Below, piece after piece: positions 1,211-18,676 of a DNA stretch of 23,463 nucleotides (the stretch's first letter is position 1; each line of letters opens with the position of its first letter). Under the pieces are notes generated by a model. It ran no database searches, was not told where the DNA came from, and was given only the letters and a program-made list of their open reading frames with translations. The DNA is from a virus: the IMG/VR virus record IMGVR_UViG_3300009788_000305, positions 1 through 23,463 of that record, one strand, 5' to 3'. Both the position numbers and the translations under genes were made by a program.

Positions 1211-3217
1211 TTATTGGCCTCCTGCTTGTGGTGCAATGGCCCTGATTAATGTTTCTTCCAGGGTTCGTGGTGCTAACTGTCCGGTTAAAGGAGTCAATTG
1301 AGGAGCTATATTTTGAAGACCCTGAACACTTCGGCCCGTTAAGGTTTCTGCCAAGGCTTCTGCTTGTGCCGGTGGTGTAGTAAGCCTTCGGACTGCACCG
1401 CGAGTCAGATTAATAGCACCTCTCACCAGATCACCTCCTGATAATTGCCGTGCGCCTTCAAGAAGTGGTGCAGGATCAAGAGTTGCCTCTCCTTGTGCTG
1501 CCAATCGTTCAGCCGTTTTCGAATTGCTCAATACATCAGTAACAGCCCTGAATAATTCCTTCTCATTTTCAAGGAACTTCGTATAGTTGGCAAACATCTT
1601 CCGATCCCCAAAAGCTGTCAGAATCTTTTGTTCCAATGCAGGAATATCTAGTAGTTTCTTGGTGGCATCTGCCCTCGATACAGTATCCCCGATTTTAGCT
1701 TTCATTGCCTGTGCTGCTCCTACCCTGAACAGATGCCGCATTTCGGGTGTCATTTCATTTAGAGCTATTCTGAGTTCTTCCGGACTGCCAAACTTAGCCT
1801 TAGACATAAAAGCAGCGCCTTGTTCAAGTGCTTCCTGATTAGCAATCTTATCCCCTGCAAGCAATCGAGCCTGAGAATAATTACCCCCTGTTACATCTGC
1901 ATTATCCAATTCCTGAACGAGCTTTCTTCTTAAAAGTGTGATCGCCCTGGATTTCTCTGTAGGCTTCCCAAATGAGGTTTTTGCCAAAGTCTCCAAATCA
2001 AACAACTCCTTTTTAACCTGGTCAAGGAATTGTAATTTAAAACCACGACCTACACCACTTCCAGTAACTATCCCTGCTTCTTTGGCTTGTGCTGTCAGTT
2101 CAGGGTCAACTTTTGATAAATTGGTCTGAAGATTCCTAAGCGTTGTCCTGGCATTACCCATAGCCTGTCTAGCTGCCGGAGTCTTTAAAAGCCGGTTGAT
2201 AACAGGGGATTCTATAACTTGATTCTGCTTAAAAGCCTGTTCAAATAATTTCCCTGATTCATTTATATTTGCCAGTTGTTGTCTTTGATTAAAGAAGTTT
2301 TCAGGAACAAGTTTATTAATATGCTCCTCGATCCTTGCTATTTGACCACCTTTAATCTGGCCTGTTTCTGGATTTCTCACGCCTTCCTGACGATCTATTA
2401 GTTTTTGAAGAATCTGTTTTTTCCCTTTTCCGGGAATACCAAAAGCCGTGAAAGCTAATGCTCTACTATTAGGTCCCATATCCAACAAAGCGGCTTCAGG
2501 ACCAAGTTCATCCAATCGATTCAATGCCTGATTAAGAGTGAGTCCATCGCGTTCTAAGGCTTCTGCTGTTTTTCTCAATGCAAGGGTTCCCTGTCTTTTA
2601 TCCGAAAAACGGCTTACTAGATTAAGAATTCCAGTACCAGTTCCCTTAACACCAGCAACCGCACCGGGAATGACAGCCCCTATTGTTCCACCTAATGCCG
2701 CACCTTCCGCCGTTTGAATAGCTCTTTCCTGTATATCACCTTGAGATTCTCCAAGAGCCTGTGCGCCACCTAAACCTGCACCCCCACCAGCACCACGCCT
2801 GATAGCCTGTGGAAGTCCTTGGGACTTTCCTATGAAACCACCCACCTTTTGACCCACCGGATTGACAAAGCCACCAATAACGGAAGCTGTGATAGCCAGT
2901 TTGGGATTGTCGGCTCTAAATTGTTCCCTTTGTTCCTTAAGAGTAGGTTCTTCTGATTCACCAAAAATACTTTCCGCTACAAATTTACCAAAATCAGAAA
3001 CCTTTTCACTCAATCCAAAAGTGGCAGTATTAAGGGCTTCGCCTGTAAATCCAGTTAATCCTTGGCTGATATCTTCAAGCAGATTAGTTTCAGGAGGAGG
3101 GGAAACTGTCACTTCACCCCTTGCAACCAATTGCTCAAAAACTTGTTGTTGGGCCGCGTTTAATTCCTCTTGCCTTCCCTGATCGGCTACGGCCTGATAA
3201 CCTTGAATTGTCGGCAT
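1211..3217 (-). CDS. ejection / internal virion protein, P22 gp16-like by position
   Basis: A 668-residue protein. It begins MPTIQGYQAVADQGRQEEL, has an acidic region around residues 85-105, then a long Gly/Ala-rich segment (about 110-200, including GGGAGLGGAQALGESQG and EGAALGGTIGAVIPGA) that could insert in a membrane, followed by a long, mostly helical, charged region. This architecture (glycine zipper-like segments plus helical body) is typical of podovirus ejection proteins carried in the head and pushed into the cell envelope with the DNA. It is the last of three such genes and close in size to P22 gp16 (about 609 residues). An AGAGGA ribosome site precedes the ATG. No lytic transglycosylase motif is visible. 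Sequence identity with gp16 itself is not evident, so the assignment is by position and composition. Confidence 0.65.
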   Translation of the reverse strand: MPTIQGYQAVADQGRQEELNAAQQQVFEQLVARGEVTVSPPPETNLLEDISQGLTGFTGEALNTATFGLSEKVSDFGKFVAESIFGESEEPTLKEQREQFRADNPKLAITASVIGGFVNPVGQKVGGFIGKSQGLPQAIRRGAGGGAGLGGAQALGESQGDIQERAIQTAEGAALGGTIGAVIPGAVAGVKGTGTGILNLVSRFSDKRQGTLALRKTAEALERDGLTLNQALNRLDELGPEAALLDMGPNSRALAFTAFGIPGKGKKQILQKLIDRQEGVRNPETGQIKGGQIARIEEHINKLVPENFFNQRQQLANINESGKLFEQAFKQNQVIESPVINRLLKTPAARQAMGNARTTLRNLQTNLSKVDPELTAQAKEAGIVTGSGVGRGFKLQFLDQVKKELFDLETLAKTSFGKPTEKSRAITLLRRKLVQELDNADVTGGNYSQARLLAGDKIANQEALEQGAAFMSKAKFGSPEELRIALNEMTPEMRHLFRVGAAQAMKAKIGDTVSRADATKKLLDIPALEQKILTAFGDRKMFANYTKFLENEKELFRAVTDVLSNSKTAERLAAQGEATLDPAPLLEGARQLSGGDLVRGAINLTRGAVRRLTTPPAQAEALAETLTGRSVQGLQNIAPQLTPLTGQLAPRTLEETLIRAIAPQAGGQ
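1218..1223 (-). promoter_or_regulatory. Shine-Dalgarno AGGAGG fixing the start at 1209
   Basis: A perfect AGGAGG on the minus strand, 8 nt before the ATG at 1209 and lying inside the last codons of the preceding gene. It favours 1209 over the in-frame ATG at 1236. Confidence 0.75.
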
Positions 3218-3227
3218 TATTAATCCT

Positions 3228-4835
3228 CTATTTAACTGCTAATAGTTCATCAATTGTCATTTCACTAAATGGCTTTTCAGTTGCTATTGTTTCAGGATTT
3301 TCCGTAGCTGTTCCTTGAGCCGTTCCAGAAATTCTCCTTTGTAATTCCGCATCAAATTTGGATTCATTAAGTTGTCCAAGTTCAACTGCATTTCCAGATT
3401 TATCAAAAGTAGGTTTGACTGGATTTCCAAACCTGTCTTCATTAAATCTACCGGAAGGATCAATCAACTGTAGAGTCCCAGACAAAAAATCATCAAACAT
3501 TTCCAATTTTAATCTAGCGATTTCAGCGGTATCAAATATATTAGGCATAAACCTAATGCGAGTATTGTCAACTTCTGCGGGTGGCATAGCAGCCCCAGTT
3601 TCACCTCTAGTTATTCCCTGGATTCCAAATTCCATTTTATTTCGTAATTTTCGGCCATCTGAGAAAGGACTATTAAACCCCGCATTGAATAAATTAGTTC
3701 TATTTAGTTCTATGCCTACTCCTTTTTTATCAAACTTATCGAAAATTAATTCTCTTATCCCCTTTGCTGCTTTTTGTGCAGTTCTTAACATTTGTACTTT
3801 AGCAGCATCTCCGGCACCAAGCCGATCCGCTTTACTACCAGGAATGGGTTTAATACCTGTTATTTTCCCAGTTTCGTCTTTATCAAACATAAAACTTTTG
3901 GGAACTTTAAACCCGGCCAGACCCTCATTTATATTAATTTGCGTTCCTGATTTGGTTAAAGATTCCCTTACAATTTTCTTGCCTTCGTCAGACAATGGAT
4001 CGATGCCAATTGACCTGAGATTTCTAATTAAAGTGGTTTCCTGTTCTGGTTTAGGAGGAGTTGCGGCAACACTCGCAATTTCTTTTCCACCAGGACCAAA
4101 CCGTACTTGTCCCGCACTTAAAGTAAAGTCTGGTGCAACTTCAGGGGGTGCCAAACGATTATCAACCAGCTTTGTCAAGGACTCACCAACAGCCAGGTCA
4201 CTGATTATTTCCCCCTGTAATTCATCGTCACTCATATTCCGCATTCTGAGCAGTTCCTGATCAATATTACCCGTATCAATGATTCGTCTGGACTGTTCAT
4301 CCTCAAGGAGTTTGTTCCTGGCTTTCCTTGTTTTTGCCCGGTCCAGTTTCAAGGCGAAACGCTGTGTATCCTCAATATCTTTCTTTGCCGCTAACATTTC
4401 GTCTTCTCTACCTGATTTAAATATATTGGATAATTGTGCAAAGGCTTCTCTTCCTCCCTTAATGCCGAGCAATCCCACAGCAAGCTTACGTTCTGTGTCA
4501 AGAACAGATTGGGTAGCAGGTTTAACTCGACTTGGTTCTACACCAATAGAGCCCCCTGGAGTAATGCCTTCTCCGGCAACAATACCCTGTGGTGCGGTGA
4601 GCGGTGGCGTACCACCCCCTAATTGCTGTTGCAATACATTCTGAATACCCTGTTGAGCTTCCAAATCATCCAGGCGTTGCAATTCTTTTAAAGCAATTTC
4701 GCGTTGAGCCACATCAATATTGGTGTCCTGCGCCTGTTGAAGGAGAGCCAGCTTCTGTCTCTGATTGATTGCCTGATTTATTCCAGAAAAATCCAGTGCC
4801 AATGTTCTGGGGTCAAAATTCTCTAATGTAGCCAT
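3228..4835 (-). CDS. ejection / internal virion protein, P22 gp20-like by position
   Basis: A 535-residue protein rich in Gln, Lys and Glu. N-terminal residues 15-70 (QRQKLALLQQAQD, QREIALKELQRLDDLEAQQ) look like an extended helix or coiled coil. A proline/glycine linker follows, then a helical region (about 110-210). Near residue 330 is GFKVPKSFMFDKDETGKITG followed by KPIPGSKADR, a pattern I have seen in ejection-type proteins of podoviruses and prophages. The ATG at 4835 is chosen: AAGG (4844-4847) sits 8 nt upstream, and the alternative GTG at 4871 would overlap the preceding gene by 26 nt. It is the second of three ejection candidates, similar in size to P22 gp20 (about 471 residues). 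Function is inferred from context and composition. Confidence 0.65.
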   Translation of the reverse strand: MATLENFDPRTLALDFSGINQAINQRQKLALLQQAQDTNIDVAQREIALKELQRLDDLEAQQGIQNVLQQQLGGGTPPLTAPQGIVAGEGITPGGSIGVEPSRVKPATQSVLDTERKLAVGLLGIKGGREAFAQLSNIFKSGREDEMLAAKKDIEDTQRFALKLDRAKTRKARNKLLEDEQSRRIIDTGNIDQELLRMRNMSDDELQGEIISDLAVGESLTKLVDNRLAPPEVAPDFTLSAGQVRFGPGGKEIASVAATPPKPEQETTLIRNLRSIGIDPLSDEGKKIVRESLTKSGTQININEGLAGFKVPKSFMFDKDETGKITGIKPIPGSKADRLGAGDAAKVQMLRTAQKAAKGIRELIFDKFDKKGVGIELNRTNLFNAGFNSPFSDGRKLRNKMEFGIQGITRGETGAAMPPAEVDNTRIRFMPNIFDTAEIARLKLEMFDDFLSGTLQLIDPSGRFNEDRFGNPVKPTFDKSGNAVELGQLNESKFDAELQRRISGTAQGTATENPETIATEKPFSEMTIDELLAVK

Positions 4836-4845
4836 ATTAAATACC

Positions 4846-5049
4846 TTAAGCTGTAATTTGTGAGGAACCACCCGGTCCAGGAATAAAGCTGGAACCTGTT
4901 GAAAAAAGATTCAAAAGATTATTAAATCTCTGTGTATTGATCTGCTCATCAGTAAGAATCCCGGAACTCTCGGCTTGCCCGATTCCAGTAATATTAGCAC
5001 CCTTTCTTCCTGATAATTGCTCCCTTAAACGGGCCAGCAAACTTGTCAA
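4846..5049 (-). CDS. C-terminal part of the first ejection protein, in the -1 frame
   Basis: A 67-residue open frame from a TTG at 5049. The same frame is meaningful further upstream to about 5101 (GSIGNQLFGQQGQLSG), so this is better read as the continuation of the 190-residue frame (5046-5618) after a -1 shift than as a separate gene. The residues after TTG include SLLARLREQLSGRKG and ITGIGQAESSGILT, then FNNLLNLFSTGSSF. That matches the usual C-terminal ending of small podovirus ejection proteins (repeated GQ/GN, 'GIGxAxAxGI', then 'xNLxxLG'). Joined at the GGGG run, the protein would be about 257 residues, near the size of P22 gp7 (229). Independent initiation at TTG cannot be excluded. 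Confidence 0.6.
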   Translation of the reverse strand: MTSLLARLREQLSGRKGANITGIGQAESSGILTDEQINTQRFNNLLNLFSTGSSFIPGPGGSSQITA

Positions 5050-5618
5050 ATTTCCTGATAATTGACCCTGTTGGCCAAATAACTGATTTCCAATTGACCC
5101 CGCTGGCTCACACCCTGGAATCCTTGACCAGAAAGGAATTCCTGCCTTCCTCTTAAATTACCTGCCAGTTGAAGTGCCAATTGTGGCCCTATCTCGGAAA
5201 GTTGCTGAACCCCCAAACCCGAACCACCTAAACCAGACGCGGATAGTTGCCCCTCGGCTCCCCTTCTTTGTAGATCCTGTAACGCCTGGAAAGTCCCCCC
5301 TCCGGTAATTTGCTGAAGGATTTCATTAAGTCCTTGGGCTGTTGAGCCTCTTTGCAATTCACCCAAAGCCCCTTGACCGGCTTGGATAAATGGATCAAAT
5401 CCAGCTTCAGTTTGCCCTTGTTGCCGTAGGAAATCTTCTCTAAGTTGTCCCTGCGCTCCTCCTATTTCTCCGGATGATATATCAAATTGCCCTTGCAGTT
5501 CTACATTCGCTTTTTCACGCGCGATTCTTTGCTGTTCTGCAGCCCTGCGTCCTATATTGCTACTACCTCCTATCCCTAGTGATTTTCCAAAACCCTTCAC
5601 AACACTAAATAAACCCAT
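5046..5618 (-). CDS. ejection protein, P22 gp7-like, broken by a -1 frameshift
   Basis: A 190-residue frame starting MGLFSVVKGFGKSLGIGG after a GAGGAAAAG ribosome site. The body is Gln/Gly/Ala-rich (FDPFIQAGQGALGELQRG, LNEILQQITGGGTFQALQDL, GQLSASGLGGSGLGVQQL), which is the familiar make-up of the small podovirus DNA-injection protein with its 'F.P...xGxxAL..L' and 'ASGxxGSGxxxxxL' segments. The family-like pattern stops at about residue 173 (GVSQR); the last 17 residues (ending ANRVNYQEI) look out of frame. The correct-looking continuation lies in the -1 frame, ending at 4846. It is the first of three ejection candidates after the gp10 homologue and needle candidate. Confidence 0.7.
   Translation of the reverse strand: MGLFSVVKGFGKSLGIGGSSNIGRRAAEQQRIAREKANVELQGQFDISSGEIGGAQGQLREDFLRQQGQTEAGFDPFIQAGQGALGELQRGSTAQGLNEILQQITGGGTFQALQDLQRRGAEGQLSASGLGGSGLGVQQLSEIGPQLALQLAGNLRGRQEFLSGQGFQGVSQRGQLEISYLANRVNYQEI
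5098..5101 (-). other. apparent -1 frameshift point at a GGGG run
   Basis: On the minus strand the codons CAG CGG GGT switch to a meaningful frame if one base is re-read, giving CAG CGG GGG TCA. The change falls in a run of four G. No classical X XXY YYZ slippery heptamer is present, so a true indel or a homopolymer sequencing error is at least as likely as programmed frameshifting. Confidence 0.6.
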
Positions 5619-5636
5619 AATCTTTTCCTCTTTAAA

Positions 5637-5924
5637 TTAACTTACAATTGCGCGATCCGTTACCCTTCGCCAATTCGTACCATCAGAGAAAGCGGGAACA
5701 CCACCCCCCGTTTCATCACTCACATAAATCATAAAACCTGTTTTTTGTGGCGGAAGAGTTGCGACTGTATAAATTGGCAACTCAATTCCAGATACACCCA
5801 AAAGACTTTCATTTAATGACAATTCAAGATCATCAAACCACTCCAGAAGCTGATCGGTTGCAAGACCTTCCTTATCAACTACCGGATCACTTCTTTGGGG
5901 ATTTGTGGTAATTTCGTCAGCCAT
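5637..5924 (-). CDS. small virion protein with fibre-tip motif; tail-needle (gp26 position) candidate
   Basis: A 95-residue protein. Residues 20-45 (ATDQLLEWFDDLELSLNESL) are probably helical. Residues 50-95 are a motif widespread at the ends of phage fibre proteins: IYTVATLPPQKTGFMIYVSD, then ETGGGVPAFSDGTNWRRVTD. It sits directly after the gp10 homologue, 2 nt from its stop, with GGAG inside the preceding gene's end as ribosome site. In P22 this slot holds gp26, the tail needle that plugs the portal and pierces the membrane. A short helix with a C-terminal beta-knob could be a reduced needle tip, but it is far shorter than gp26 (233 residues). The structural role is well supported; the needle role is inference. 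Confidence 0.65.
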   Translation of the reverse strand: MADEITTNPQRSDPVVDKEGLATDQLLEWFDDLELSLNESLLGVSGIELPIYTVATLPPQKTGFMIYVSDETGGGVPAFSDGTNWRRVTDRAIVS

Positions 5925-5926
5925 AA

Positions 5927-7285
5927 TTATTCTCCAAATTCAACGACAAGATAATCCGAATTAAAAGTAAGGTTTCCAGTGGTCACAAGTTCGTAAGCCA
6001 TGAAACCCTCATAATTACCCAACCCGCCAGGATCATTCCAGATTAACTTTTGATCATAATTTCCTTTTAATGCCAGTTCTCTATAAACTGTGGGACCAAA
6101 AAGGACTCCATTATCACTGGTCCTCAAACCTACTGATTGAGCCTCACCTTCATTGAATCCCTGCGATACACCCAGTTCAAGGCTCGCCACTGTAAAATCG
6201 GCTCTATCAGGATGGCTTATGGTTCCCTTTTGAATTCTTGTTATGCGATTACCATAATCAAAATTAATGTCAGTAAATTTTCCAAACCTGTCATCCGATC
6301 CGGAAAAATATTCGTTATCTATTTCGACAATATAACCGCCGAGCCACGGACGGGAAAGATTATCAACAACGGTGTCAGTGGTTGACCATCGGCCCTCAAA
6401 AAATAAAAGGGAGTTGCGCCTTAACTCAAGCGTTTCAAAATCATAGCTGTTAAGCCAATTGATACGGCCTGGAATGGTCTGTGATAATTCCAGTTCCGTG
6501 TAAGTGGTGAGGATTAAATCAACGGCCTCATTTGAAATTTTAATGACCTGACTGCTACCCATTTCAAATATACCTGGACTCTGACCTCGTTTTCTTCCTA
6601 CAAAAATAAAGCTTTGATCGGCTTCTACCAGTCCCCCGATAAAACCGATATCAAAAGAACCTCCTACTTCTCTGTATGGAGTGGGGAATACTCCTGTGTC
6701 CTTATATCTGATCGTTTCATTTGACCCCGCTATATATAGATAATCTTTTAGAACAAACGCTACTCTTGATTCCAGGGCAGATTTTAAAAAGCTCAAGGCG
6801 TTAATAGTTCCCCCTGCGCCCACATCCGAAAACTTGAACACAGTTCCATCAGCCAATACATAAACAAATCTTTGCCTGTAATGGGTGACACTTGAAAAGG
6901 GAGCAAAATTGGCATTACCGGACGTATCAACCAGCATGTCCGTCTTGTCCAGGGTATAACTCTTTCCTCCCTTGACTATGATTACCGCTTCGTTATCCCC
7001 GATAGCCGAATCAATTTCCTGTGGACCCTCGATTGTACCGATAACAGAAAATGCGCCGGTTTTCCGGTCCGTGAATTTCCTCAGTTCCTGAGAATAGACA
7101 TAATAAAGATTGCCGTTCCATTCAAAACCACCACGGGCCACACCCCCCACACTCGCAATAAGAGGAATACCAGGACGCGAAATAGTCAGACCATCCCCGT
7201 TATTGAGCATATTTCTCAACTCGGTATTGGTGCGCGGGAGCTTGTCAGTTCCCTCTAATCCTATGGGTAGACTGAGTTCTGGCAT
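5927..7285 (-). CDS. packaged DNA stabilization protein, P22 gp10-like
   Basis: A 452-residue protein (P22 gp10 is 472). It opens MPELSLPIGLEGTDKLPRTN and continues LRNMLNNGDGLTISRPGI, the 'NmyP..tG....RPG' opening shared by gp10 and other tail-hub beta-propeller proteins. Later repeats such as FEWNGNLYYVYSQELRKF, RQRFVYVLADGTVFKFSD and DQSFIFVGRKRGQSPGIFEM fit the hub propeller fold. In P22, gp10 hexamers bind the gp4 ring below the portal, stop DNA leaking out and carry the tailspikes. Synteny is exact: gp4 homologue before, needle-position gene after. A GAGAA ribosome site precedes the ATG. Family assignment is strong; individual residues were not checked against an alignment. Confidence 0.85.
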   Translation of the reverse strand: MPELSLPIGLEGTDKLPRTNTELRNMLNNGDGLTISRPGIPLIASVGGVARGGFEWNGNLYYVYSQELRKFTDRKTGAFSVIGTIEGPQEIDSAIGDNEAVIIVKGGKSYTLDKTDMLVDTSGNANFAPFSSVTHYRQRFVYVLADGTVFKFSDVGAGGTINALSFLKSALESRVAFVLKDYLYIAGSNETIRYKDTGVFPTPYREVGGSFDIGFIGGLVEADQSFIFVGRKRGQSPGIFEMGSSQVIKISNEAVDLILTTYTELELSQTIPGRINWLNSYDFETLELRRNSLLFFEGRWSTTDTVVDNLSRPWLGGYIVEIDNEYFSGSDDRFGKFTDINFDYGNRITRIQKGTISHPDRADFTVASLELGVSQGFNEGEAQSVGLRTSDNGVLFGPTVYRELALKGNYDQKLIWNDPGGLGNYEGFMAYELVTTGNLTFNSDYLVVEFGE

Positions 7286-7298
7286 TTAATTTCTCATA

Positions 7299-7763
7299 TC
7301 AAGGGATTATCCTTCTATCTGTTTCGACATCGGATAAAACAAAATCAGCGTTAGCAAATACAGGTGGTTTGATTCCTCTTGTATTTCCAGCGCCCAGCGG
7401 CATTGTTCCAGATACAATCCTGTCAGCCGCTTCTTTGCTCTGGTACTGGTCTTTCACAGTCTGCAGGGAAATGGCCGCATTTGCCAACAGCGTTGAATTT
7501 GCCACCTTACCCACTGATGGTGCCAACCTGACAGCAAGATTAGTGGAAATGGCTGTTTCCAGACCCACCGGGATACTGGTTTCATCACTGACAAACTCAG
7601 TTGCCGAGAACCCGAAATCCATATCATTGTCAATCCATTCCTGCATCATGGCCTGGAACTTGCGCCTTCCAAACTCTATGGCAAAAGAAGAAACAGGTTT
7701 GACCTGTGAATGAACGACCAACTCTGTATAAGCGTCTGTGATTAATTCCGTTGCAGAACTCAT
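7299..7763 (-). CDS. tail accessory factor / head completion protein, P22 gp4-like
   Basis: A 154-residue protein (P22 gp4 is 166). Residues 1-60 are helical with the pattern ELITDAYTELVVH and FGRRKFQAMMQEWIDNDMD, matching gp4's 'A...L...EAMMAEWYQDG'. The middle has ISTNLAVRLAPSVGK, corresponding to gp4's 'NLACRIAPDY', and the end has SGTMPLGAGNTRG, corresponding to 'RMPTGSGN'. gp4 forms a ring on the portal after packaging and links it to gp10. Neighbours agree: coat upstream, gp10 homologue downstream with 13 nt between. An AGGTG ribosome site overlaps the stop of the preceding 68-residue gene. In P22 a muralytic activity has been reported for gp4; nothing visible here confirms that. Confidence 0.85.
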   Translation of the reverse strand: MSSATELITDAYTELVVHSQVKPVSSFAIEFGRRKFQAMMQEWIDNDMDFGFSATEFVSDETSIPVGLETAISTNLAVRLAPSVGKVANSTLLANAAISLQTVKDQYQSKEAADRIVSGTMPLGAGNTRGIKPPVFANADFVLSDVETDRRIIP

Positions 7764-7766
7764 TGT

Positions 7767-7973
7767 TTACACCTGTAAAGTTGTTGCGGCTGAAGATGCA
7801 GCAGCTTTTTCCGCTTCCTCACGTTTGGCCGCTTCCAATGCAGCAGAAGTATTATCAGTCGGTTTCTGGGCATCACCAGGGTTATCAAACCATCCATCAG
7901 CTTCAGCCTGTTCAACTTTATCATTATCAAAAAGTTTTGCTTCGGTCCCTTTGTACATACATGATTGATCCAT
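7767..7973 (-). CDS. small head-region protein, unknown function
   Basis: A 68-residue protein between coat and gp4 homologue. The N-terminal half (MYKGTEAKLFDNDKVEQAEA then DGWFDNPGD) is a pattern I have seen in small phage proteins following coat genes. The C-terminal half is an Ala/Glu/Lys-rich helix (AALEAAKREEAEKAAASSAA). AAAGGA lies 8 nt before the ATG. P22 has no gene in this position. The function is unknown; a minor head or neck component is plausible only from location. Confidence 0.7.
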   Translation of the reverse strand: MDQSCMYKGTEAKLFDNDKVEQAEADGWFDNPGDAQKPTDNTSAALEAAKREEAEKAAASSAATTLQV

Positions 7974-8088
7974 AATTAAATTCCTTTCGTTTATGAATTT
8001 TTATAAACTCTTCCCAAATTTTTTCATAGAGGGCATCCGATTTCCTCATTTCCGCAATAAATCTTGGTACTTTTTTGTTATTTGACAT
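7927..8088 (-). CDS. possible small charged protein (53 residues)
   Basis: An open frame between the coat terminator and the 68-residue gene: MSNNKKVPRFIAEMRKSDAL then YEKIWEEFIKIHKRKEF. The first 40 residues look like a normal helical, charged protein and fill the otherwise empty 7974-8144 gap. The last 15 residues lie inside the start of the next gene (47-nt overlap). I see no convincing ribosome site before its ATG, and it lies just beyond an intrinsic terminator, so it may not be translated. It is reported as tentative. Confidence 0.4.
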   Translation of the reverse strand: MSNNKKVPRFIAEMRKSDALYEKIWEEFIKIHKRKEFNYGSIMYVQRDRSKTF

Positions 8089-8101
8089 AAAAACTCATTT
8101 T

Positions 8102-8130
8102 AAAAAGAAGGGGGTGAGCGTCCCCACCCC
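8102..8130 (-). terminator. intrinsic terminator after the coat gene
   Basis: On the minus strand GGGGTG (8125-8130) and CACCCC (8111-8116) form a 6-bp GC-rich stem around an 8-nt loop, followed by CTTCTTTTT (8102-8110). This is a good Rho-independent signal 14 nt past the coat stop codon. It would reduce transcription of the tail genes relative to coat. The alternative pairing GGGG/CCCC gives the same conclusion. Confidence 0.7.
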
Positions 8131-8144
8131 ATTCAATGTTTAGA

Positions 8145-9452
8145 TTAGGTTTGGCTACCCAAAATGACACCACATTTCTGCGGTACCAGGATATTGGCAG
8201 CACACCAGGCCGTGAGTCGATACTTCGTATCCAGGGTGAGGATATCTGTATTTCTCAACAGAATTAACTCGATCCCTGAATCCGTTATATCCCGAGCAAC
8301 AGCAACACCACTCCCTTCCATATCCAAACCAGAAAGACTGCCATGCACAATCTCGACAGCATCATTGGTAAAGAAAACGCTGGCTCGTTGCGTAACAGTA
8401 TTAAGAAAGACGATTGCCTGGTTGTTAGCGGCACCCGTAGTGCAGTTGGCATATTCTGTCTCTGCCTGTGTGCCACCGTCCAGCGCGATAAGAGCCGGAG
8501 TGATTACCCAGGTTTCGGCACCTATTCCATCGCCTGTGGTAGATACGATGCGGAAAGTCTGGAGTTTCCCAGTGCTTTCCTTGGTGATCATATTCACACC
8601 AAATACACCGGCAATAGTGAAGGCATCGCCTTCCTTAACCGCATTGGTTCCGGTATCAACAAGCAGATTCATAAAGCGATTATCGACAGGTTTGGCATTC
8701 GGTGTGCCGGCATCATTACCCTGTGGAATATGCTTTTGAACTGCAACTTGATTGGTTAAATAGCCGGTTCCACTGGCACCGCCAGCCACAACGATATTGG
8801 GCATCGTATTACCTTTGAACGTATCAAAACCAGCAATCATAGGAAGCCGGTTACGCTCCAAGGCAGCTATCGGGATTTCATTCAACGTCCGAGGACTTAC
8901 CTGGAGTTGATTGGCAACCGCATTGCTGATGAAAGGTTCCAGAAACATACTGCGAGGTTCCATCATATCAATACCGCGAATAGACATTTCAGCCTCGCAC
9001 TGACTGAGCTGGGTATAACTCGTAAGTGCCGCAGATTCCTTGATAAAAATACCACCCTGTTTTGCAGTAAGTTCCTTGATTTTCTGATCTACATCAGAGG
9101 AAATCTTGCGGATAACCCCTTTCAGTTTCCGGTCCCTGGAAGTAGCATCATTCAAATCATTGGCATTCAATTTGAACGTGCTATTAATAAAGTCTGAAGG
9201 TGCAGCTACATTTGAATTCAGACTTGAAGGAACAGAAAGTGCCGTAACATCAGTAAAAGCACTGACGGTTCGACCTTGTGAAGATGCGGAAATATCGTCA
9301 GTAGGACGCCATACCGTATTAGAAGATTGCTCACCTTCTGTCTCAGGCATTTTGTACTTGGGAACGATTTTCCCCATCTCATTTGCATTGTTAAAGGTCT
9401 TGATCAAATCATTGAAAAAGACTTTTATACTTTTTGGTAATGAACTTGCCAT
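8145..9452 (-). CDS. major capsid (coat) protein, P22 gp5-like
   Basis: A 435-residue protein (P22 gp5 is 430). Motifs line up with gp5 in order: QSSNTVWRPTDD (gp5 'RSSNTIWMPVE') near residue 43; NSTFKLNANDLNDATSRDRK (gp5 'FFQLRADDLRDET') near 88; PNAKPVDNRFMNLLVD (gp5 'VNVDNRFATVTL') near 250; RASVFFTNDAVEIVHGSLS (gp5 'TNVFWADDAIRIVSQPI') near 355; and the ending TDILTLDTKYRLTAWCAAN (gp5 'GDISTLSGLCRIALWYGVN'). The stretch after VDNRF, where gp5 has its inserted I-domain, is present at similar length. The protein assembles the icosahedral shell with the scaffold encoded just upstream. A perfect AGGAGG 8 nt before the ATG and a terminator after the stop fit very high expression. Confidence 0.93.
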   Translation of the reverse strand: MASSLPKSIKVFFNDLIKTFNNANEMGKIVPKYKMPETEGEQSSNTVWRPTDDISASSQGRTVSAFTDVTALSVPSSLNSNVAAPSDFINSTFKLNANDLNDATSRDRKLKGVIRKISSDVDQKIKELTAKQGGIFIKESAALTSYTQLSQCEAEMSIRGIDMMEPRSMFLEPFISNAVANQLQVSPRTLNEIPIAALERNRLPMIAGFDTFKGNTMPNIVVAGGASGTGYLTNQVAVQKHIPQGNDAGTPNAKPVDNRFMNLLVDTGTNAVKEGDAFTIAGVFGVNMITKESTGKLQTFRIVSTTGDGIGAETWVITPALIALDGGTQAETEYANCTTGAANNQAIVFLNTVTQRASVFFTNDAVEIVHGSLSGLDMEGSGVAVARDITDSGIELILLRNTDILTLDTKYRLTAWCAANILVPQKCGVILGSQT

Positions 9453-9517
9453 TGTAGTGCCCTCCTGGGACTTTGATGGACCATCCGTGGTCCACTACGT
9501 TTATGTTTTAATACCCG
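9453..9517 (-). promoter_or_regulatory. coat leader: strong Shine-Dalgarno with hairpins
   Basis: The 65-nt gap between scaffold and coat holds AGGAGG (9461-9466), a perfect 6-bp inverted repeat TGGACC/GGTCCA with a 6-nt loop (9477-9494), and a longer-range pair GTAGTG (9493-9498) with CACTAC (9454-9459) that would close a loop around the ribosome site. The two stems share two bases, so the small hairpin would be shortened if both form. There is no T-run, so this is not a terminator. A role in coat translation or mRNA stability is inference. Confidence 0.45.
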
Positions 9518-10468
9518 TTAAACCTTCTTGATTCCGACGCCTCTTTTCTCGGCCTGGGCTTCAATCTCCCTGGCTCTGGCAAAGTTGTCAGACTCAATTG
9601 CGTTGTCAAATTCCTTCTGCAGATTATTGGTCGATACAGGAGGATTGCCATTAGCAATTTTACTTTCCGGATCAGCAGGTATTGTGGATTTGGTTTTAAC
9701 TTTTACCTTCGCAGAAAGTTTCCCCAGTTCCATTACACATTTAAAAGCATCGCCATTATCAGCAAGTCTCCGGATGCGTAGTGCCTCATCAGGGTTTTTC
9801 CCTAACAAATAGGCAACTTCAGGGGAATTATCACAGTTTTTAACAAGCTCGTTGAATACATCATCACCCAATATCTTGATGGCGTTATCTTCCATCTCCT
9901 CAAAGTCAGACACCTTCAAATCCGAAGCCCTTTCATAATGCCTGGACTTACTTTGCTGAAGGTTATCCTGTTGAGTGTGCAGATTCTGGGAATTGGCAGA
10001 CTGTTTCTGCACTTCCTGAATCTGCTGGTTGACCATCTGTTGATTAGATTTCTGGTAGAATTCATTAATCTCTTTAATGTAAAGAGGATCATGCACTCCG
10101 TCCGGAAACCTGTTCAAATCATTGGGATCAGGTTGAACCAATTGGGGCGCCTGGTTGCCTTGAATTGCTTGCAAAGCATTCTTATAGGCTTCCAGTTCTA
10201 TTTCGGCCTTCTCTGCCCGTTCGTTTGATTCAGCAATCTGAGCGTTCTTTCTGTTTATCCTGTGACTAAACTTGTTTCTGCCTTTTTTTGAAGGTTTCGA
10301 ACCTTCATCTCCTTCTAAAACAATTTCAGATTCTTGATCTTCTTCTTTTTGGGAAGGTTCACCCGATTCATCAGTTTGCCCACCGTCTCCAGTTTGCTCA
10401 CCTTCTTCTAGGTTGGTATCAGTATCTAATTCTGTTTCTTCTGGATTCGCTTCTAATTCTGTTTCCAT
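9518..10468 (-). CDS. capsid scaffolding protein
   Basis: A 316-residue protein (P22 gp8 is 303). The N-terminal 60 residues are extremely acidic, with DTDTNLEEGEQTGDGGQTDE as an example. Residues 60-110 are a basic-to-helical region (KKGRNKFSHRINRKNAQIAE, then NERAEKAEIELEAYKNAL) likely to form a coiled coil. A Gln-rich helical stretch follows (about 135-175). The C-terminus is helical with basic residues (RAREIEAQAEKRGVGIKKV), as expected for the coat-binding end of a scaffold. It sits immediately before the coat gene, exactly where scaffolds lie. A GGAG ribosome site (about 10477-10480) precedes the ATG. Scaffolds diverge quickly, so the call rests on composition and position. Confidence 0.8.
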   Translation of the reverse strand: METELEANPEETELDTDTNLEEGEQTGDGGQTDESGEPSQKEEDQESEIVLEGDEGSKPSKKGRNKFSHRINRKNAQIAESNERAEKAEIELEAYKNALQAIQGNQAPQLVQPDPNDLNRFPDGVHDPLYIKEINEFYQKSNQQMVNQQIQEVQKQSANSQNLHTQQDNLQQSKSRHYERASDLKVSDFEEMEDNAIKILGDDVFNELVKNCDNSPEVAYLLGKNPDEALRIRRLADNGDAFKCVMELGKLSAKVKVKTKSTIPADPESKIANGNPPVSTNNLQKEFDNAIESDNFARAREIEAQAEKRGVGIKKV

Positions 10469-10527
10469 GATATCTACTCCTTTCAGAGTGGTTACGGTTT
10501 AACGCTTCGTTGAGCGAAAGTTACTTC

Positions 10528-11304
10528 TTATAAATTTGTCCATGAAAATCCGGTATGTTTATTTTTAAAATAATTGCCAAGGTCGTTCTTTTCAGAATCG
10601 GAAAGTGCCTTATCATATACAGCAAAATCATAGAATTTATAATTCGCCGGGAAACTACCACCTGTGCGTCCACACATTGTTAGGCCATTCTGCGTATTAA
10701 CTCCAGCATTCCCAGTTATGGTTGATCCCCCATCCAAAACAAACTTAGAGGCGGCGCCATCATAAGTTAAAATAAAAATATGTTTATTCAGGTCAGGCGT
10801 GCCAACATCAAATCCTGTATTACCGAACAATTGCCAGTTATTAGTACCCATCGCTAAAAAGGCATTATCATCTTGTCCTGTACCCGTATCAAATACCCAA
10901 ACGATAGCTTGATTTGTCACAGCTTGAGCGGCAAAAGCGTAAGTAAGAGGTTGAGATTTGGCTCCTCCCGCATAAGTTGCAACATCCAAAAAATGATCAA
11001 CCCCGTCAAAATTAATGAATGGCGTTGGATCTGTAGTCGTATCATAAAGCGGTCTGTCGGCAGCATTGGTCTGGGTCACATGATTTGCATTTACACTTTG
11101 ATCGTTCCATTGATCGACATCCCCGCTAACAGTTGACACGTTTTGCCCAGCATCCCACCAACCAATAATGTTGCTTATAGATAAGGGATCGAAAGCCGGG
11201 ACTACACCGGCAACCTCTGGGCCAAAAGCATTTCCAAACGCATTGCCAAAAGCATCACCAAAGGGTGGCCTGTTATACGGAACTGTGTTAAAAAACTTTG
11301 TCAT
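10528..11304 (-). CDS. LamG/ConA-like lectin-fold virion protein, copy 2
   Basis: A 258-residue paralogue of the preceding gene. Residues 1-20 are identical between the two (MTKFFNTVPYNRPPFGDAFG), followed by four-residue AFGN repeats. The body has the pattern of concanavalin-A/LamG-like jelly-roll domains: IIGWWDAGQNVSTVSGDVDQ and WNDQSVNANHV, then RPLYDTTTDPTPFINFDGVD, and later FILTYDGAASKFVLDG. It ends LGNYFKNKHTGFSWTNL, like the paralogue's IGNYEANKFGLTWTDI. Such domains bind sugars or proteins on virion surfaces. Placed between portal and scaffold, it is probably a capsid decoration or attachment protein. The start lies 6 nt after the previous stop, with no strong ribosome site, suggesting coupled translation. 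Confidence 0.7.
   Translation of the reverse strand: MTKFFNTVPYNRPPFGDAFGNAFGNAFGPEVAGVVPAFDPLSISNIIGWWDAGQNVSTVSGDVDQWNDQSVNANHVTQTNAADRPLYDTTTDPTPFINFDGVDHFLDVATYAGGAKSQPLTYAFAAQAVTNQAIVWVFDTGTGQDDNAFLAMGTNNWQLFGNTGFDVGTPDLNKHIFILTYDGAASKFVLDGGSTITGNAGVNTQNGLTMCGRTGGSFPANYKFYDFAVYDKALSDSEKNDLGNYFKNKHTGFSWTNL
11222..11304 (-). repeat. diverged direct repeat encoding the shared lectin-protein N-terminus (copy 2)
   Basis: The first about 83 nt of this gene match the first about 83 nt of the upstream paralogue (11999-12081), 777 bp away. The 20 leading codons give identical residues despite several silent differences. This is a remnant of a tandem gene duplication and a possible recombination point. 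Confidence 0.75.
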
Positions 11305-11310
11305 TTTAAG

Positions 11311-12081
11311 TTATATATCTGTCCAGGTTAACCCGAACTTGTTTGCTTCATAATTTCCGATCAAATTCTTTTGAACATTTGTTGGTTCGCTGTCATAAAC
11401 AAGTGCTTCAAAGACCTCTATATTGGAAAATTGACCTCCTCCTCCAGCAACCGCTCCAAAGTTAAAACCTGATAAAGTTTGACTTCCAACACTCCCGTTT
11501 AGGATATCAGGAAGTCCTTCATAAAACGATTTACTACTATTCACATTAAAAACGGTCATATTTAATCTTCGCGTGTTTATTGGGCCAGGATCTGAAGGAC
11601 TTGTTGTAAACCCTCCTGCAAAATAACCTGTTTGACCTCCGGTTGGTTGAAATTGATTTCTATTACCTGAAGCTATGCCAGAATAAAAACAACCATTGTT
11701 AACGATAGACGGTAAGGAATAAACAATAATTATTGTATTGGGTTGCGTTAATGGAGAACCAAAAGCCATCGTCTCAATAAAATTATCACTCCCATTAAAT
11801 CGAACAAAAGGTGGTGATCCCGCCACGAATAAAGGTTGATTGGTCTGTGTTGCCTGCGCCAAATCATTCCCATTTCCGCTTTGGTCAGCCCAACCCGCAA
11901 CATCCGATCCAGTTCCAAATGTTATTCCGAGAGCCGCATCATACCAACATATAAGATTGGGTACATCAGCAGGAGTAAATGCTGCAACGCTACTTTTCCC
12001 GAAAGCCTTCCCGAATGCAATTCCAAAAGCATCTCCAAAAGGGGGCCTGTTATATGGAACTGTATTGAAAAACTTTGTCAT
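11311..12081 (-). CDS. LamG/ConA-like lectin-fold virion protein, copy 1
   Basis: A 256-residue protein beginning MTKFFNTVPYNRPPFGDAFG then IAFGKAFGKS. The body has the recurrent LamG-like pattern PNLICWYDAALGITFGTGSD, VAGWADQSGNGNDLAQATQT, NQPLFVAGSPPFVRFNGSDN, with strands such as NTIIIVYSLPSIVNNGCFY. The ending LIGNYEANKFGLTWTDI closes the fold and is shared with copy 2. The common N-terminus probably anchors both to the same virion partner while the lectin domains have diverged, which would give two binding specificities. The ATG overlaps the stop of the 106-residue gene by 4 nt (ATGA). The family call rests on the W-x-D-x-SGN-x-N / P-x-F-x-G-x-D pattern; the ligand is unknown. Confidence 0.72.
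   Translation of the reverse strand: MTKFFNTVPYNRPPFGDAFGIAFGKAFGKSSVAAFTPADVPNLICWYDAALGITFGTGSDVAGWADQSGNGNDLAQATQTNQPLFVAGSPPFVRFNGSDNFIETMAFGSPLTQPNTIIIVYSLPSIVNNGCFYSGIASGNRNQFQPTGGQTGYFAGGFTTSPSDPGPINTRRLNMTVFNVNSSKSFYEGLPDILNGSVGSQTLSGFNFGAVAGGGGQFSNIEVFEALVYDSEPTNVQKNLIGNYEANKFGLTWTDI
11999..12081 (-). repeat. diverged direct repeat encoding the shared lectin-protein N-terminus (copy 1)
   Basis: This is the partner of 11222-11304. It includes the phenylalanine-glycine region, where the tetrapeptide AFG plus one variable residue is repeated. Confidence 0.75.
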
Positions 12082-12398
12082 GCTCTCGGTCCCGTATTAA
12101 GGAAAACTCCTACTGCTGGGGTTGTTGCTATTTTAGTCACCCCAATAGTCATCGGTGAATTGATGGCTACGGTGTTGGTGGTTGAGTTAAATATAACAGC
12201 CGATCCAGCTTGTTCTACGGGTATAAAAGTATCCCCTCCATCTGCGCTGATGCTGATCGTAACGGTGCCTGTCGTTATCCCATTACAAAACAAAGTAGCG
12301 GGTAAAGCCTCCTGCCTGATCTTAACTGCTACATTTACCGCTACCGCGAGCAAAGTAGGTGCGATGAGTACTTGTGAATCCTGTGCTGGGAAACCCAT
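12078..12398 (-). CDS. small beta-rich virion protein, unknown function
   Basis: A 106-residue protein, almost entirely alternating hydrophobic and Thr/Ser residues: APTLLAVAVNVAVKIRQEAL, GTVTISISADGGDTFIPVEQ, then NTVAINSPMTIGVTKIATTP. The pattern suggests a beta-sandwich. It has no signal peptide. The segment TVTISISADGGDTFIPVEQ resembles the 'S.DgG.tf..v' strand found in phage structural proteins and propeller blades. It lies between portal and lectin-fold genes, with its stop overlapping the next start. A capsid decoration or fibre-base role is a guess from location. Confidence 0.65.
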   Translation of the reverse strand: MGFPAQDSQVLIAPTLLAVAVNVAVKIRQEALPATLFCNGITTGTVTISISADGGDTFIPVEQAGSAVIFNSTTNTVAINSPMTIGVTKIATTPAVGVFLNTGPRA

Positions 12399-12415
12399 GA
12401 TTTAGTCCTTTCTTT

Positions 12416-12601
12416 TTATTTAAGTGGCAATGGGCGCCAAATCTGCCATTCTCTAGGCGCTCCTGCGTAACTCTCTCCGGGGGGCGCTCCTGCGTAACCC
12501 ACTCCAAGAGGATTAATAACAGGTGTCAATTCAGCTATTTGTATCCGCAATCTGAGAACTTCATTCTCTAACTTCAAATATTCTTCTTCAGTTCGCATCA
12601 T
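12416..12601 (-). CDS. small coiled-coil protein with a 9-residue repeat
   Basis: A 61-residue protein just after the portal gene (8-nt gap). Residues 4-27 (TEEEYLKLENEVLRLRIQIA) form a heptad-like helix. The C-terminal part has a tandem 9-residue repeat, GYAGAPPGE then SYAGAPREW, which corresponds to a 16-bp perfect DNA repeat spaced 27 bp apart. No family is recognised. The coiled coil suggests oligomerisation. Translation is likely coupled to the portal gene. Confidence 0.65.
   Translation of the reverse strand: MMRTEEEYLKLENEVLRLRIQIAELTPVINPLGVGYAGAPPGESYAGAPREWQIWRPLPLK
12456..12498 (-). repeat. 16-bp direct repeat, 27-bp period
   Basis: ggcgctcctgcgtaac occurs at 12456-12471 and again at 12483-12498. 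The spacing of 27 bp keeps the reading frame and produces the YAGAP repeat of the 61-residue protein. Confidence 0.85.
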
Positions 12602-12609
12602 TTATTCCT

Positions 12610-14721
12610 CTATTGAAGTGGTAATCCTGATACGTTTTCGAATAAACTCTGTTGAATCTCCGATTCTATTTTATCTATATCTGCGGCGGTCTTCGCATTA
12701 GTGAGGGGCAGTTCTCGGACAATCTTCTCCGTTTCTGCCGCTTTCTTCTGAGCCGACGCCAGGTTATCGGCAACCTTGGAAGTGCGCTCTTCTGCCTCTG
12801 ACTCAGCCTGTTTGGCAAGCGATTCTTCCAGGTTTGGTCCCTGTTCTGCCTGCTCGGCTTCTGCCTGCGCTTCTGCAAGGAATTTCTCATCTTCGTCATT
12901 TTCAGGTTTAATAATTCCTTTCAAGAGCATGGACTGTCTCACCATTTTCTTGAGTGTTTCCATTCCGGTTCCCTGCGTCAATGTGATAAGGGCTTCCATT
13001 GCAGGGTCCAGATATTTCTCGCCACCCGGGATACCTTTGGCCAACTCAATAAATCCTTTGATATTCTCCACGCTTTCTTCCCGCTGGCTTTCAAAGGCCG
13101 GTCCCACATCAGCATAAGCCTTGAACTTCTTATCCTTGAATATATTACGCTCCTCAAACTGGTTGTCTTCCTCATTGAATACCGTTTCCCCTACCGTCCG
13201 GAGTCCTCGAGTCCCATCCTTCGCCAAGGTCCGAATCAAATCATCGGCATTCGTGATCTCACTCTTGATCGATTGATACACGGTGCCTTCCCATCTTTTA
13301 GCCTGGATCACGTTATCCATCATGGGTGCGGTGTTCATATTCATGCGTTTGATAACCTGCTGGATAGCTTTGCCCGATGCGTCCGGATTCAAGGTATCGA
13401 CATCAACGGCACCAGTCAGCGCATTAATATAGTTGGGGATGATATCAATGAGCTTGCTGGTGTTCGGATCGAGTGGTTTCCCCTGCGTGTAGGCGATATT
13501 CTGAGGACCGGAAATAATATCCCCTGTTTTCGGGTTTATCTTATCGTTCACATAAACAAAAGCCTTTTTGCTCGGGTCTTGCCATTGCTGTACCAACTCA
13601 CCGTTCGGGCTATCCAGTTGCCCCTTGCTGAAGATAGAAATACCGCCCTTATCTGACATAGCGTATTCCATAATCTGAGCAATCAGTACGTTATACATCC
13701 GTTGAGCATCTTTGAACTTGCGGACCAGGCCATACCAGCGTTCCTGCCCATCTGAATAGGATCGATAGCCATAAACCGTGATGACCGGTATCCACATTCC
13801 GGGGATTCTTACATCCTCTTCGAAGAATTCTTCCCCGTTGAATACTGATTTCAATATCTGTGGCCGGATGATTTCGCGCTCACCAATCTTTGTCAGCTTG
13901 GGATTGGTCTTGATTTCATCTTCTATTTCTTTATGCTGATTCTCCCAGAAATGGACGTTCTTGCCGCTTGCCAGGTCACGGTAACGAAACAATATTTCCT
14001 TTTTCTTGATACGTTCATACCGTTCAGCTACCCGGATAATGGCTTCACTGTTGGAGTTATAGTTGAACTCCTCCCGATTCACAGGAGTGAAGACCGTGGA
14101 CAATGAGGCATCAGGATAAAGCCTTTCATACGCTGTCTGGGTGTATTCGGTCAGCACTGTAATCCAGTTGGCATCTGATTTGTTGGGCCGTTTAGCCGAA
14201 GCATCGGTGAACACGCTGTTGTAAGGGTTGACTATCTCATCCCACACCACAATCTGCTTCTCGTTGTTTTTATCGGAATTATCCTCAAACTCTGTGCGGA
14301 GTTTATAAGCCCCGAACCCGGTATCCGCTTGCTCGGTGATCGCCATGTTGAAAGCGATATCACCATTCCCCTCTTTATAATCAGCGCGGTAAGCATCATT
14401 CAGGAGTTTGGCATCATCATCTGTCGTGGCCTTATCATCAGGCTTGAAATCCACACCGATATCATTTTCGAACACTTCACCCACATACCGGTTGCGATAC
14501 TGGGAAATCATATCGAGTTCAGGCTTGGCGCGGTTGGTGAATTGGATTCCGAACTCACCCTCCCATTGACCACCGGGAACATTGATGAACCGGCTGTCCT
14601 CATTGGCCTGGTCGCGCTGTTCATTGATAACCTGGGCATCATTGGTCAAGTCCTTCTTGAACTTTTCCAGCTTGTTAACATCACCTAAACGGCGATCAGT
14701 TTCTTTGTTTTCTTCTGGCAT
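12610..14721 (-). CDS. portal protein, P22 gp1-like
   Basis: A 703-residue protein (P22 gp1 is 725). The N-terminal segment FINVPGGQWEGEF and the following RAKPELDMISQYRNRYVGEV are hallmarks of P22-type portals ('QW....r..RP.l..N.i...v..v.ge'). Then come DFKPDDKATTDDDAKLLNDA, a mixed wing region with WDEIVNPYNSVFTDASAKRP, and the stem/crown part containing ALTGAVDVDTLNPDASGKAI. The C-terminal 110 residues are a highly charged helix (EAQAEAEQAEQGPNLEESLA), reminiscent of the P22 barrel. Twelve copies form the DNA channel at one vertex and dock TerL. It follows TerL by 3 nt, as in P22-like phages. Confidence 0.9.
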   Translation of the reverse strand: MPEENKETDRRLGDVNKLEKFKKDLTNDAQVINEQRDQANEDSRFINVPGGQWEGEFGIQFTNRAKPELDMISQYRNRYVGEVFENDIGVDFKPDDKATTDDDAKLLNDAYRADYKEGNGDIAFNMAITEQADTGFGAYKLRTEFEDNSDKNNEKQIVVWDEIVNPYNSVFTDASAKRPNKSDANWITVLTEYTQTAYERLYPDASLSTVFTPVNREEFNYNSNSEAIIRVAERYERIKKKEILFRYRDLASGKNVHFWENQHKEIEDEIKTNPKLTKIGEREIIRPQILKSVFNGEEFFEEDVRIPGMWIPVITVYGYRSYSDGQERWYGLVRKFKDAQRMYNVLIAQIMEYAMSDKGGISIFSKGQLDSPNGELVQQWQDPSKKAFVYVNDKINPKTGDIISGPQNIAYTQGKPLDPNTSKLIDIIPNYINALTGAVDVDTLNPDASGKAIQQVIKRMNMNTAPMMDNVIQAKRWEGTVYQSIKSEITNADDLIRTLAKDGTRGLRTVGETVFNEEDNQFEERNIFKDKKFKAYADVGPAFESQREESVENIKGFIELAKGIPGGEKYLDPAMEALITLTQGTGMETLKKMVRQSMLLKGIIKPENDEDEKFLAEAQAEAEQAEQGPNLEESLAKQAESEAEERTSKVADNLASAQKKAAETEKIVRELPLTNAKTAADIDKIESEIQQSLFENVSGLPLQ

Positions 14722-14724
14722 AAT

Positions 14725-15975
14725 TTACCAACCTGTAGAGGCCCGTTCAGGCACTCCGTAGTTAAAGTTATCTTCTTTCTTTTGGGTCAATGATGGGAAT
14801 AACTCAGTAAACGCCCAGACCAGAGCATCACATCTATCCGGTGAGCCTTCCCCTTCATACCCTCCTGCTGTCATTTTGCACATCTGGTCCTCTAATTCGT
14901 TGAACGTGCCAACATGGGAAACACGCCCGGTCTTATACAATGCGCTGATTGGCTCGGCTCGGACATGCTTCCCTTTGGTTGCTCTAACCTCCCTGATTGG
15001 CAGACCAGGGCGAATAGAATCAAGCGTATGCCTTACCATATCCCCGCCTTGATTAATCTCGATTACGATACAATCAGCCTCATGCTCATCATAGGCAGCA
15101 ATGGTGCGAGTGGCCCACTGTTCCGGTGAGCCCTTCAAAGACCAGTCAGCCAATACATAACCACGCTGATCAGATCCTATACCCGCGACAATAATCCCAT
15201 GCTCATCACTGTGTTCTTCATTGGATATAGCAGGGTCAACAGCAACCACGACCCTACCCATTTCAGGGAGTTCATGCCTGCGGTGAGCGTGTAATGTCTG
15301 CCGATCCCAGATAGCACCGATAGCCGTTGGTTCATATTCACCCAACCAGATATGAGCGTAGCGGTCTGGGTTGTTCTTCAAATCATATTGTCTTTCTTCT
15401 TCCAGAACAGCAGGGAACCAGGGGTTATCTTGATACGTTGTCTTGATAACCAACGCACTCTTGGGGGGTTCCAATCCCCTGAATAAAGAATCAACAGGGT
15501 CACTTGCGTTTCGCGGATTCCAGGAACACCATATCTCTGAGTTATCCTTCCTGATTGTCGGCCTGAGATATTCCATTGAGCGTTTAGAGGATGTCTGAGC
15601 TTCTTCCACCCATGCCACATCGTAGCCTTCCAATGATTTAATCGATTCAGCAGTATGGTCCTGCAATCCCTGGAAAGAAATGATTCCCCTGCCAGGTGTT
15701 TCAATGCTGTCATTCATTACCCTGAATTCATCCCTCAACCTAAAGCGGTCTATCTTATCCTCAATCAACCGTTTAGCCGATTCTTTCAAGGACTTCTGCA
15801 CTTCCCGAACACAGACCATCCTGAAGCCCGGTTGCATCAATGACCGTTCAATCCCCAACTCACTGAAGAAATGGGACTTCAACGCACCACGACCACCATA
15901 AATGGCCTTGTATCGGCTGGGTTCCAGCATGGGTCGGAGAACCTTAGCTGTCTGAATTTGTAGGGTTGCTGTCAT
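14725..15975 (-). CDS. terL: terminase large subunit (TerL)
   Basis: A 416-residue ATPase-nuclease that packages DNA into the head. The ATPase part has a Walker A-like loop GGRGALKS (27-34) and a Walker B segment EGYDVAWVEEAQ (116-127), followed by the coupling stretch WCSWNPRN (149-156). The nuclease part has VVVAVDPAIS (Asp247), CIVIEINQGGD (Glu306) and a final PDRCDALVWAF (Asp383), the usual acidic triad, with KGKHVRAEPISALYKTGRVS between. In the P-loop the usual small residue before Lys is Leu32, which is unusual. The length is shorter than P22 gp2 (499). The ATG has only a weak ribosome site and follows a 107-nt untranslated stretch with repeats. Confidence 0.92.
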   Translation of the reverse strand: MTATLQIQTAKVLRPMLEPSRYKAIYGGRGALKSHFFSELGIERSLMQPGFRMVCVREVQKSLKESAKRLIEDKIDRFRLRDEFRVMNDSIETPGRGIISFQGLQDHTAESIKSLEGYDVAWVEEAQTSSKRSMEYLRPTIRKDNSEIWCSWNPRNASDPVDSLFRGLEPPKSALVIKTTYQDNPWFPAVLEEERQYDLKNNPDRYAHIWLGEYEPTAIGAIWDRQTLHAHRRHELPEMGRVVVAVDPAISNEEHSDEHGIIVAGIGSDQRGYVLADWSLKGSPEQWATRTIAAYDEHEADCIVIEINQGGDMVRHTLDSIRPGLPIREVRATKGKHVRAEPISALYKTGRVSHVGTFNELEDQMCKMTAGGYEGEGSPDRCDALVWAFTELFPSLTQKKEDNFNYGVPERASTGW

Positions 15976-16082
15976 ATTCTTATTTAATTGTCCCCCATAA
16001 TGTCCAGCTTATTTTCAGCTAAACTATTGTTTTTAAGTTGCTTTCTTATTTAAGCGTGTCTTTTTGTCCGTCATTTTGTCCC
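15976..16082. other. untranslated gap before terL
   Basis: A 107-nt stretch with no convincing gene. Two tiny frames exist on the minus strand, a 17-codon one starting MRDKMTDKK and a 4-codon one. It contains the TGTCC-based repeats described separately and no clear -35/-10 pair. Confidence 0.5.
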
Positions 16083-16088
16083 TCATTT
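15989..16088. repeat. iteron-like 12-bp repeats (consensus TGTCCNNCATWW)
   Basis: Units tgtcccccataa (15989-16000), tgtccagcttat (16001-16012), tgtccgtcattt (16065-16076) and tgtccctcattt (16077-16088) form two pairs, each with exact 12-bp spacing, 76 bp apart. The second pair is identical at 11 of 12 positions. They may be a protein-binding array, for example for a terminase small subunit or regulator. The second agrees with the consensus only in its TGTCC core. Confidence 0.5.
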
Positions 16089-16232
16089 CCAGAACTCCCA
16101 CCACTTCTTAATGCTTGGTTGAATAATATACATTCTTGAAAGACTTGGATTGCCTAACATCCTGTTAACTCTACGAATACGAGCCCTCTTATTTCTTATT
16201 CTGTGCTTGGCAGTTCCCATTTTATTCGTCAT
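16083..16232 (-). CDS. small basic protein (49 residues)
   Basis: A frame starting MTNKMGTAKHRIRNKRARIR and ending in IKKWWEFWK. It is very basic in the first 25 residues, like a nucleic acid-binding tail, and ends with a Trp-rich segment. Its ATG overlaps the stop of the DUF5681-type gene by 4 nt (ATGA), the same coupling seen elsewhere in this operon, and it fills an otherwise empty gap. No family is recognised. It might be a helper of the terminase, but this rests on location alone. Confidence 0.55.
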   Translation of the reverse strand: MTNKMGTAKHRIRNKRARIRRVNRMLGNPSLSRMYIIQPSIKKWWEFWK

Positions 16233-16576
16233 TTCGGTTCAATAATAGTCCGTTCGATTCGTGTTACTGTCAATTCCCCATCCAGCTTGACCTCTTTAGG
16301 CATCGGGGATTCCGTCTGATCAAATATCAGCTTGATAGCATGGTGGTCACTCTTTAACGCCATGTTTTTCAATAAGGTGGCAATCAGTTCCGCGTGGTCG
16401 TTATCTTCCAGATGAACACCTTTAGCCGCCAACTCCTGTATTAAATTGGGTGATATCTTCTGGTCAAGGATACGCATTAATCGGGCTCTCAACCCTGTCT
16501 TGGCTCCCTTTGGCCTGCCATTAGGGTTGCCCGATTGTCCTGGCTTAAAATGCGTTAAATTCTGTTCGTTACTCAC
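16229..16576 (-). CDS. DUF5681-type protein, terminase small subunit candidate
   Basis: A 115-residue protein with FKPGQSGNPNGRPKGAKTG at residues 10-28, the signature of DUF5681 proteins, which often lie next to phage terminase genes. The rest is mostly helical (LRARLMRILDQKI, DHAELIATLLKNMALKSDHH) and ends in a beta-like basic tail TVTRIERTIIEPK. The start is GTG at 16576 with GAGGG just upstream. Position directly before terL (apart from the 49-residue gene) is where P22-like phages have gene 3, which recognises pac. Small terminase function is therefore likely but not proven. Confidence 0.7.
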   Translation of the reverse strand: MSNEQNLTHFKPGQSGNPNGRPKGAKTGLRARLMRILDQKISPNLIQELAAKGVHLEDNDHAELIATLLKNMALKSDHHAIKLIFDQTESPMPKEVKLDGELTVTRIERTIIEPK

Positions 16577-16591
16577 TGTTCCCTCACTGTT

Positions 16592-16837
16592 CTATTTAAC
16601 ATCCAATCCAAGGCGTTTGCGTTCCAGATCACGGTAAAAACTTTCGCTTTTAGCCTTTTCCTCGGCTTCTTTTTGTTCCAGGTAATTGCGCAGTTTCTTT
16701 GTTTCACGTTCCACACAGACCGCATAATCTGCTGAATCAGTGCCGAATCCATACGTTTCACATTGCTTCTGGAATTTTGTCTGACCAGCACAACCAACAA
16801 CCACTAAAGAAATAACTATTAAAATCATTGTTTTCAT
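16592..16837 (-). CDS. small phage-encoded lipoprotein
   Basis: An 81-residue protein with a short lipoprotein signal: MKTMILIVISLVVVGC, lipobox VVGC with Cys16 as the lipidated residue. After cleavage comes a motif common in small bacterial lipoproteins, CETYGFGTDSADYAVCVERE ('C..yGF..gt..fa.Cv..E'), with two further Cys that may form a disulfide, then a charged helix (LRNYLEQKEAEEKAKSES). The ATG overlaps the methyltransferase stop by 4 nt (ATGA). It is not proline-rich, so it is not an obvious Rz1-type outer spanin. Other possibilities are superinfection exclusion or a host-derived passenger gene. Export is well supported; function is unknown. Confidence 0.8.
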   Translation of the reverse strand: MKTMILIVISLVVVGCAGQTKFQKQCETYGFGTDSADYAVCVERETKKLRNYLEQKEAEEKAKSESFYRDLERKRLGLDVK

Positions 16838-18509: not shown

Positions 18510-18676
18510 TTTTCATTCTCTTCATTTTCCAGATATTTTCTTATAGATTCGCGACTTGTAACCCCAAACCGTTTGTCACAATCCACACATTGACCCCATA
18601 CTTCTTTTTCATTGCTTGCAGGTGTACCGAGACACCATCCAAATAAACATTTAATTTTCTTAAATAAATTACCCAC
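18488..18676 (-). CDS. small Cys-rich protein (CxxC), GTG start
   Basis: A 62-residue protein: after the start it reads GNLFKKIKCLFGWCLGTPAS, then QCVDCDKRFGVTSRESIRKY and LENEENEKWLNQLK. The CVDC pair plus upstream Cys residues suggest a small zinc-binding or membrane-associated protein like other short phage CxxC proteins. The GTG at 18676 is chosen because it overlaps the stop of the upstream gene (GTGGGTAA) and follows a GGGGG stretch. A TTG at 18769 would give 93 residues, but the added part is an out-of-frame reading of the neighbour's glycine-rich tail. Confidence 0.6.
   Translation of the reverse strand: MGNLFKKIKCLFGWCLGTPASNEKEVWGQCVDCDKRFGVTSRESIRKYLENEENEKWLNQLK

Follow-up and report, generated by a model that had tools for sequence, protein, structure and literature searches.

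An apparent one-base deletion breaks a predicted gp7-like ejection-protein gene in one record of an environmental P22-like phage

The gene at 4846-5618 on the minus strand of this 23,463-base virus record (the window, meaning the whole stretch analysed) appears to be a gp7-like ejection-protein gene of the ordinary kind, from a short-tailed phage resembling P22. Its reading frame is almost certainly split by a deletion of one base that is found in this record only, and that would stem either from misassembly or from a recent loss-of-function mutation. Loss of one base after codon 176, at 5090/5091, would give 14 wrong residues and then a stop, and would leave the conserved C-terminal third of the protein in the -1 frame. 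On sequence comparison, the split appears to be such a private mutation or assembly error, with no frameshifting mechanism behind it. This is a caution for annotation, since the region is probably best described as one broken gp7-like ejection-protein gene, and neither as two genes nor as a case of slippage.

Two frames on the minus strand make up the gene. The first, of 190 residues, runs from 5618 to 5046, and the second, of 67 residues, runs from a TTG at 5049 to 4846 and is in -1 relative to the first. When coding potential is scored by codon usage, with 11 other genes of the window as the training set, frame 0 scores best to about residue 170 and the -1 frame from that point to the stop at 4846, beyond which the next gene takes the lead. 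From the window alone, the switch can be placed between 5157 (past the last -1-frame stop) and 5048 (the frame-0 stop). The initial annotation had put a -1 frame change at a GGGG run (5098-5101). The frame change itself is borne out by the open reading frames and codon usage, but the site is not, as the change lies at 5090/5091 when the window is compared with the near-identical contig L001. GGGG occurs at 122 positions on the minus strand of the window.

L001 (IMG/VR contig 3300028610_000305) represents nearly the same phage, and is identical to window 4567-8789 in 4219 of 4224 aligned columns (99.9%), with one gap. This gap, at which the window is one base shorter, follows residue 176; the GGGG run (5101-5098) lies seven bases upstream of it and is identical in both. 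Unlike the window, L001 has the gene unbroken, as an uninterrupted frame of 257 codons plus stop that ends just ahead of the next gene. By blastp the 190-residue frame is 100% identical to the L001 protein over residues 1-176, where the alignment stops, and the -1 stretch of the window is identical to L001 residues 177-257. Residues 1-176 of the 190-residue frame thus appear authentic, while residues 177-190 are out of frame. The reading of the two frames as one ejection protein of 257 residues is upheld by this single frame, and of the explanations offered earlier, that of a broken gene holds for this record.

L006 (3300022690_001791; 258 aa) and L002 (3300023443_000127; 369 aa) encode diverged homologues, each in one frame across the break point. 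They have conserved residues on either side of the junction, and beyond it share the motif GIGQAxSxG. The presence of the long frame in these two homologues shows that it is ancestral, and hence that it is the window, not L001, that carries the change. An error in L001 instead is possible in principle, but it would need the chance restoration of a frame common to two diverged homologues. As in the window, Hc3-type and small genes precede the gp7-like gene in L001, L006 and L002. None of the relatives found has a gene ending in the 190-residue frame, an arrangement that would have spoken against a broken gene. At the level of sequence, the comparison with relatives shows the break itself.

Programmed -1 ribosomal frameshifting at the GGGG run, with products of 190 and 257 residues, is the least probable of the readings considered and has next to no likelihood. 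The zone in which the frames overlap (5157-5048) is open and includes the run, but near-identical L001 retains the same GGGG and needs no frameshift, and the full length is directly encoded in L006 and L002 as well. The overlap zone holds no XXXYYYZ heptamer in the -1 register, in agreement with the initial annotation; the only heptamer there, AAATTTG, does not have the required register and extends into the stop codon of frame 0. The downstream RNA structure is no stronger than that of shuffled sequences (-18.5 kcal/mol over 82 nt, z -0.83, in a pseudoknot-free model). The overlapping-frame arrangement is also not conserved, with L001, L006 and L002 each having one continuous frame. The evidence from L001, from the heptamers and from RNA folding led to the rejection of slippage at GGGG, and nothing supports the two slippage products that had been proposed.

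A functional split into two genes, in which the 190-residue protein ends at its TGA and the 67-residue part is re-initiated at the overlapping TTG, is extremely unlikely, although re-initiation at this overlap is formally possible. The TTG overlaps the stop codon (TTGA) and has an AGGA three bases upstream, but in L001 the TTG and AGGA are both internal to the intact frame, which argues that they belong to the coding sequence and did not evolve as start signals. The single frame is present in a strain of 99.9% identity, and no convincing match was obtained for residues 177-190 of the 190-residue frame. The 67-residue frame matches residues 191-257 of the L001 protein and, in L002, the C-terminal half of the protein (E 4e-5), both of these proteins being encoded in a single frame. 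In the relatives its sequence is conserved solely as the C-terminal end of a long frame and not as a protein of its own, and a separate conserved gene starting at the TTG is rejected.

Between the two origins of the private deletion, the balance tips slightly towards a consensus or assembly error over a real mutation in the sampled population. This lean rests on a description of P22 (PMC4992974) in which deletions of the ejection-protein genes, gene 7 included, are lethal; on that ground, a phage population would be less likely to maintain a truncated form. The change lies outside a homopolymer, which weakens the case for a simple miscall and makes a true mutation quite possible. It is very unlikely that the deletion is a real polymorphism whose truncated 190-residue ejection protein still works, with or without a re-initiated C-terminal piece.

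L001 and two further near-identical contigs, L008 and L009, cover window 4567-16898 with about 17.5 kb aligned, L001 alone extending over the break point. They differ from the window by 39 substitutions (one site being counted in two contigs) and a single indel, that at 5090/5091. Of the 28 differences from L009, 26 lie within 200 bases of the terminase gene (15061-15262), a cluster that may be a recombination tract or a chimeric assembly. Six of the seven differences from L008 fall in the coat gene (window 8745-8769), within the final 35 bases of that contig and next to the start of L001; a bubble caused by strain variation seems to have interrupted both assemblies here.

Searches of isolated phages, plasmids and prokaryote genomes found no homologues of the gene, and no solved structure matched by sequence. 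When IMG/VR was scanned for exact matches to the junction carrying 0-2 extra bases, L001 was the only contig returned, in a search that may not have included the window's own record. The gene profile had no match in the contigs that share the terminase (L010, L012 and others). The window and its relatives form a small group of P22-like phages from environmental samples, whose ejection proteins are diverged.

The window has the gene order of P22 (NC_002371), terminase-portal-scaffold-coat-Ad3-Hc3-...-gp7-gp20-gp16. The terminase is at 14725-15975, the P22-type portal at 12610-14721, the coat at 8145-9452, the Ad3 adaptor at 7299-7763 and the Hc3 closure protein at 5927-7285, with a small gene (5637-5924) between Hc3 and the gp7-like gene. 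On the other side, on the minus strand, are a 536-residue protein in the position of gp20 (3228-4838) and a 668-residue protein in that of gp16 (1211-3217), which correspond to the P22 proteins by place only. PHROG and Pfam searches with the first gave no match, and a homologue 51% identical to it adjoins the gp7-like gene in the L002/L004 contig. The second matches phrog_5880, a family of unknown function (E 5e-37).

Other minus-strand genes of the window have features of their own. Two tandem proteins, 10528-11304 and 11311-12081, lie between the portal gene and the gene preceding the coat; they have a common N-terminus (MTKFFNTVPYNRPPFGDAFG.AFG.AFG), diverge afterwards, and both match phrog_10356, a virion structural protein family. 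The gene at 16834-17955, just upstream of the packaging genes, encodes a ParB-like domain fused to an N6/N4 DNA methyltransferase (phrog_498, PF01555). The short overlapping frames 18488-18769 and 18669-18902 have no family matches, and may represent either a pair of overlapping genes or a single gene with a further frame break.

The gp7-like identity of the broken gene follows from its family match together with the P22 gene order, and from these a role in DNA ejection seems probable. In a profile search the 190-residue frame matches phrog_598, annotated as DNA ejection, at E 3.8e-6, and the proteins of L001 and L006 match it at E 1.1e-5 and 1.7e-6, modest scores that span about half of the profile. 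P22 gp7 itself belongs to phrog_598, matching at E 2e-95. The protein of the broken gene and P22 gp7 are placed in the same PHROG family by profile, but they are very diverged, with about 21% identity in a multiple alignment, and hhalign gave no significant result when P22 gp7 alone was compared directly. The intact relative has 257 residues against 229 in P22, slightly exceeding the 181-240 residues given for proteins of the gp7 kind (PMC8954989). Like gene 7 of P22, the gene lies between the neck genes on one side and, on the other, two larger genes in ejection-protein positions; it differs from the P22 gene in that its reading frame is broken in this record.
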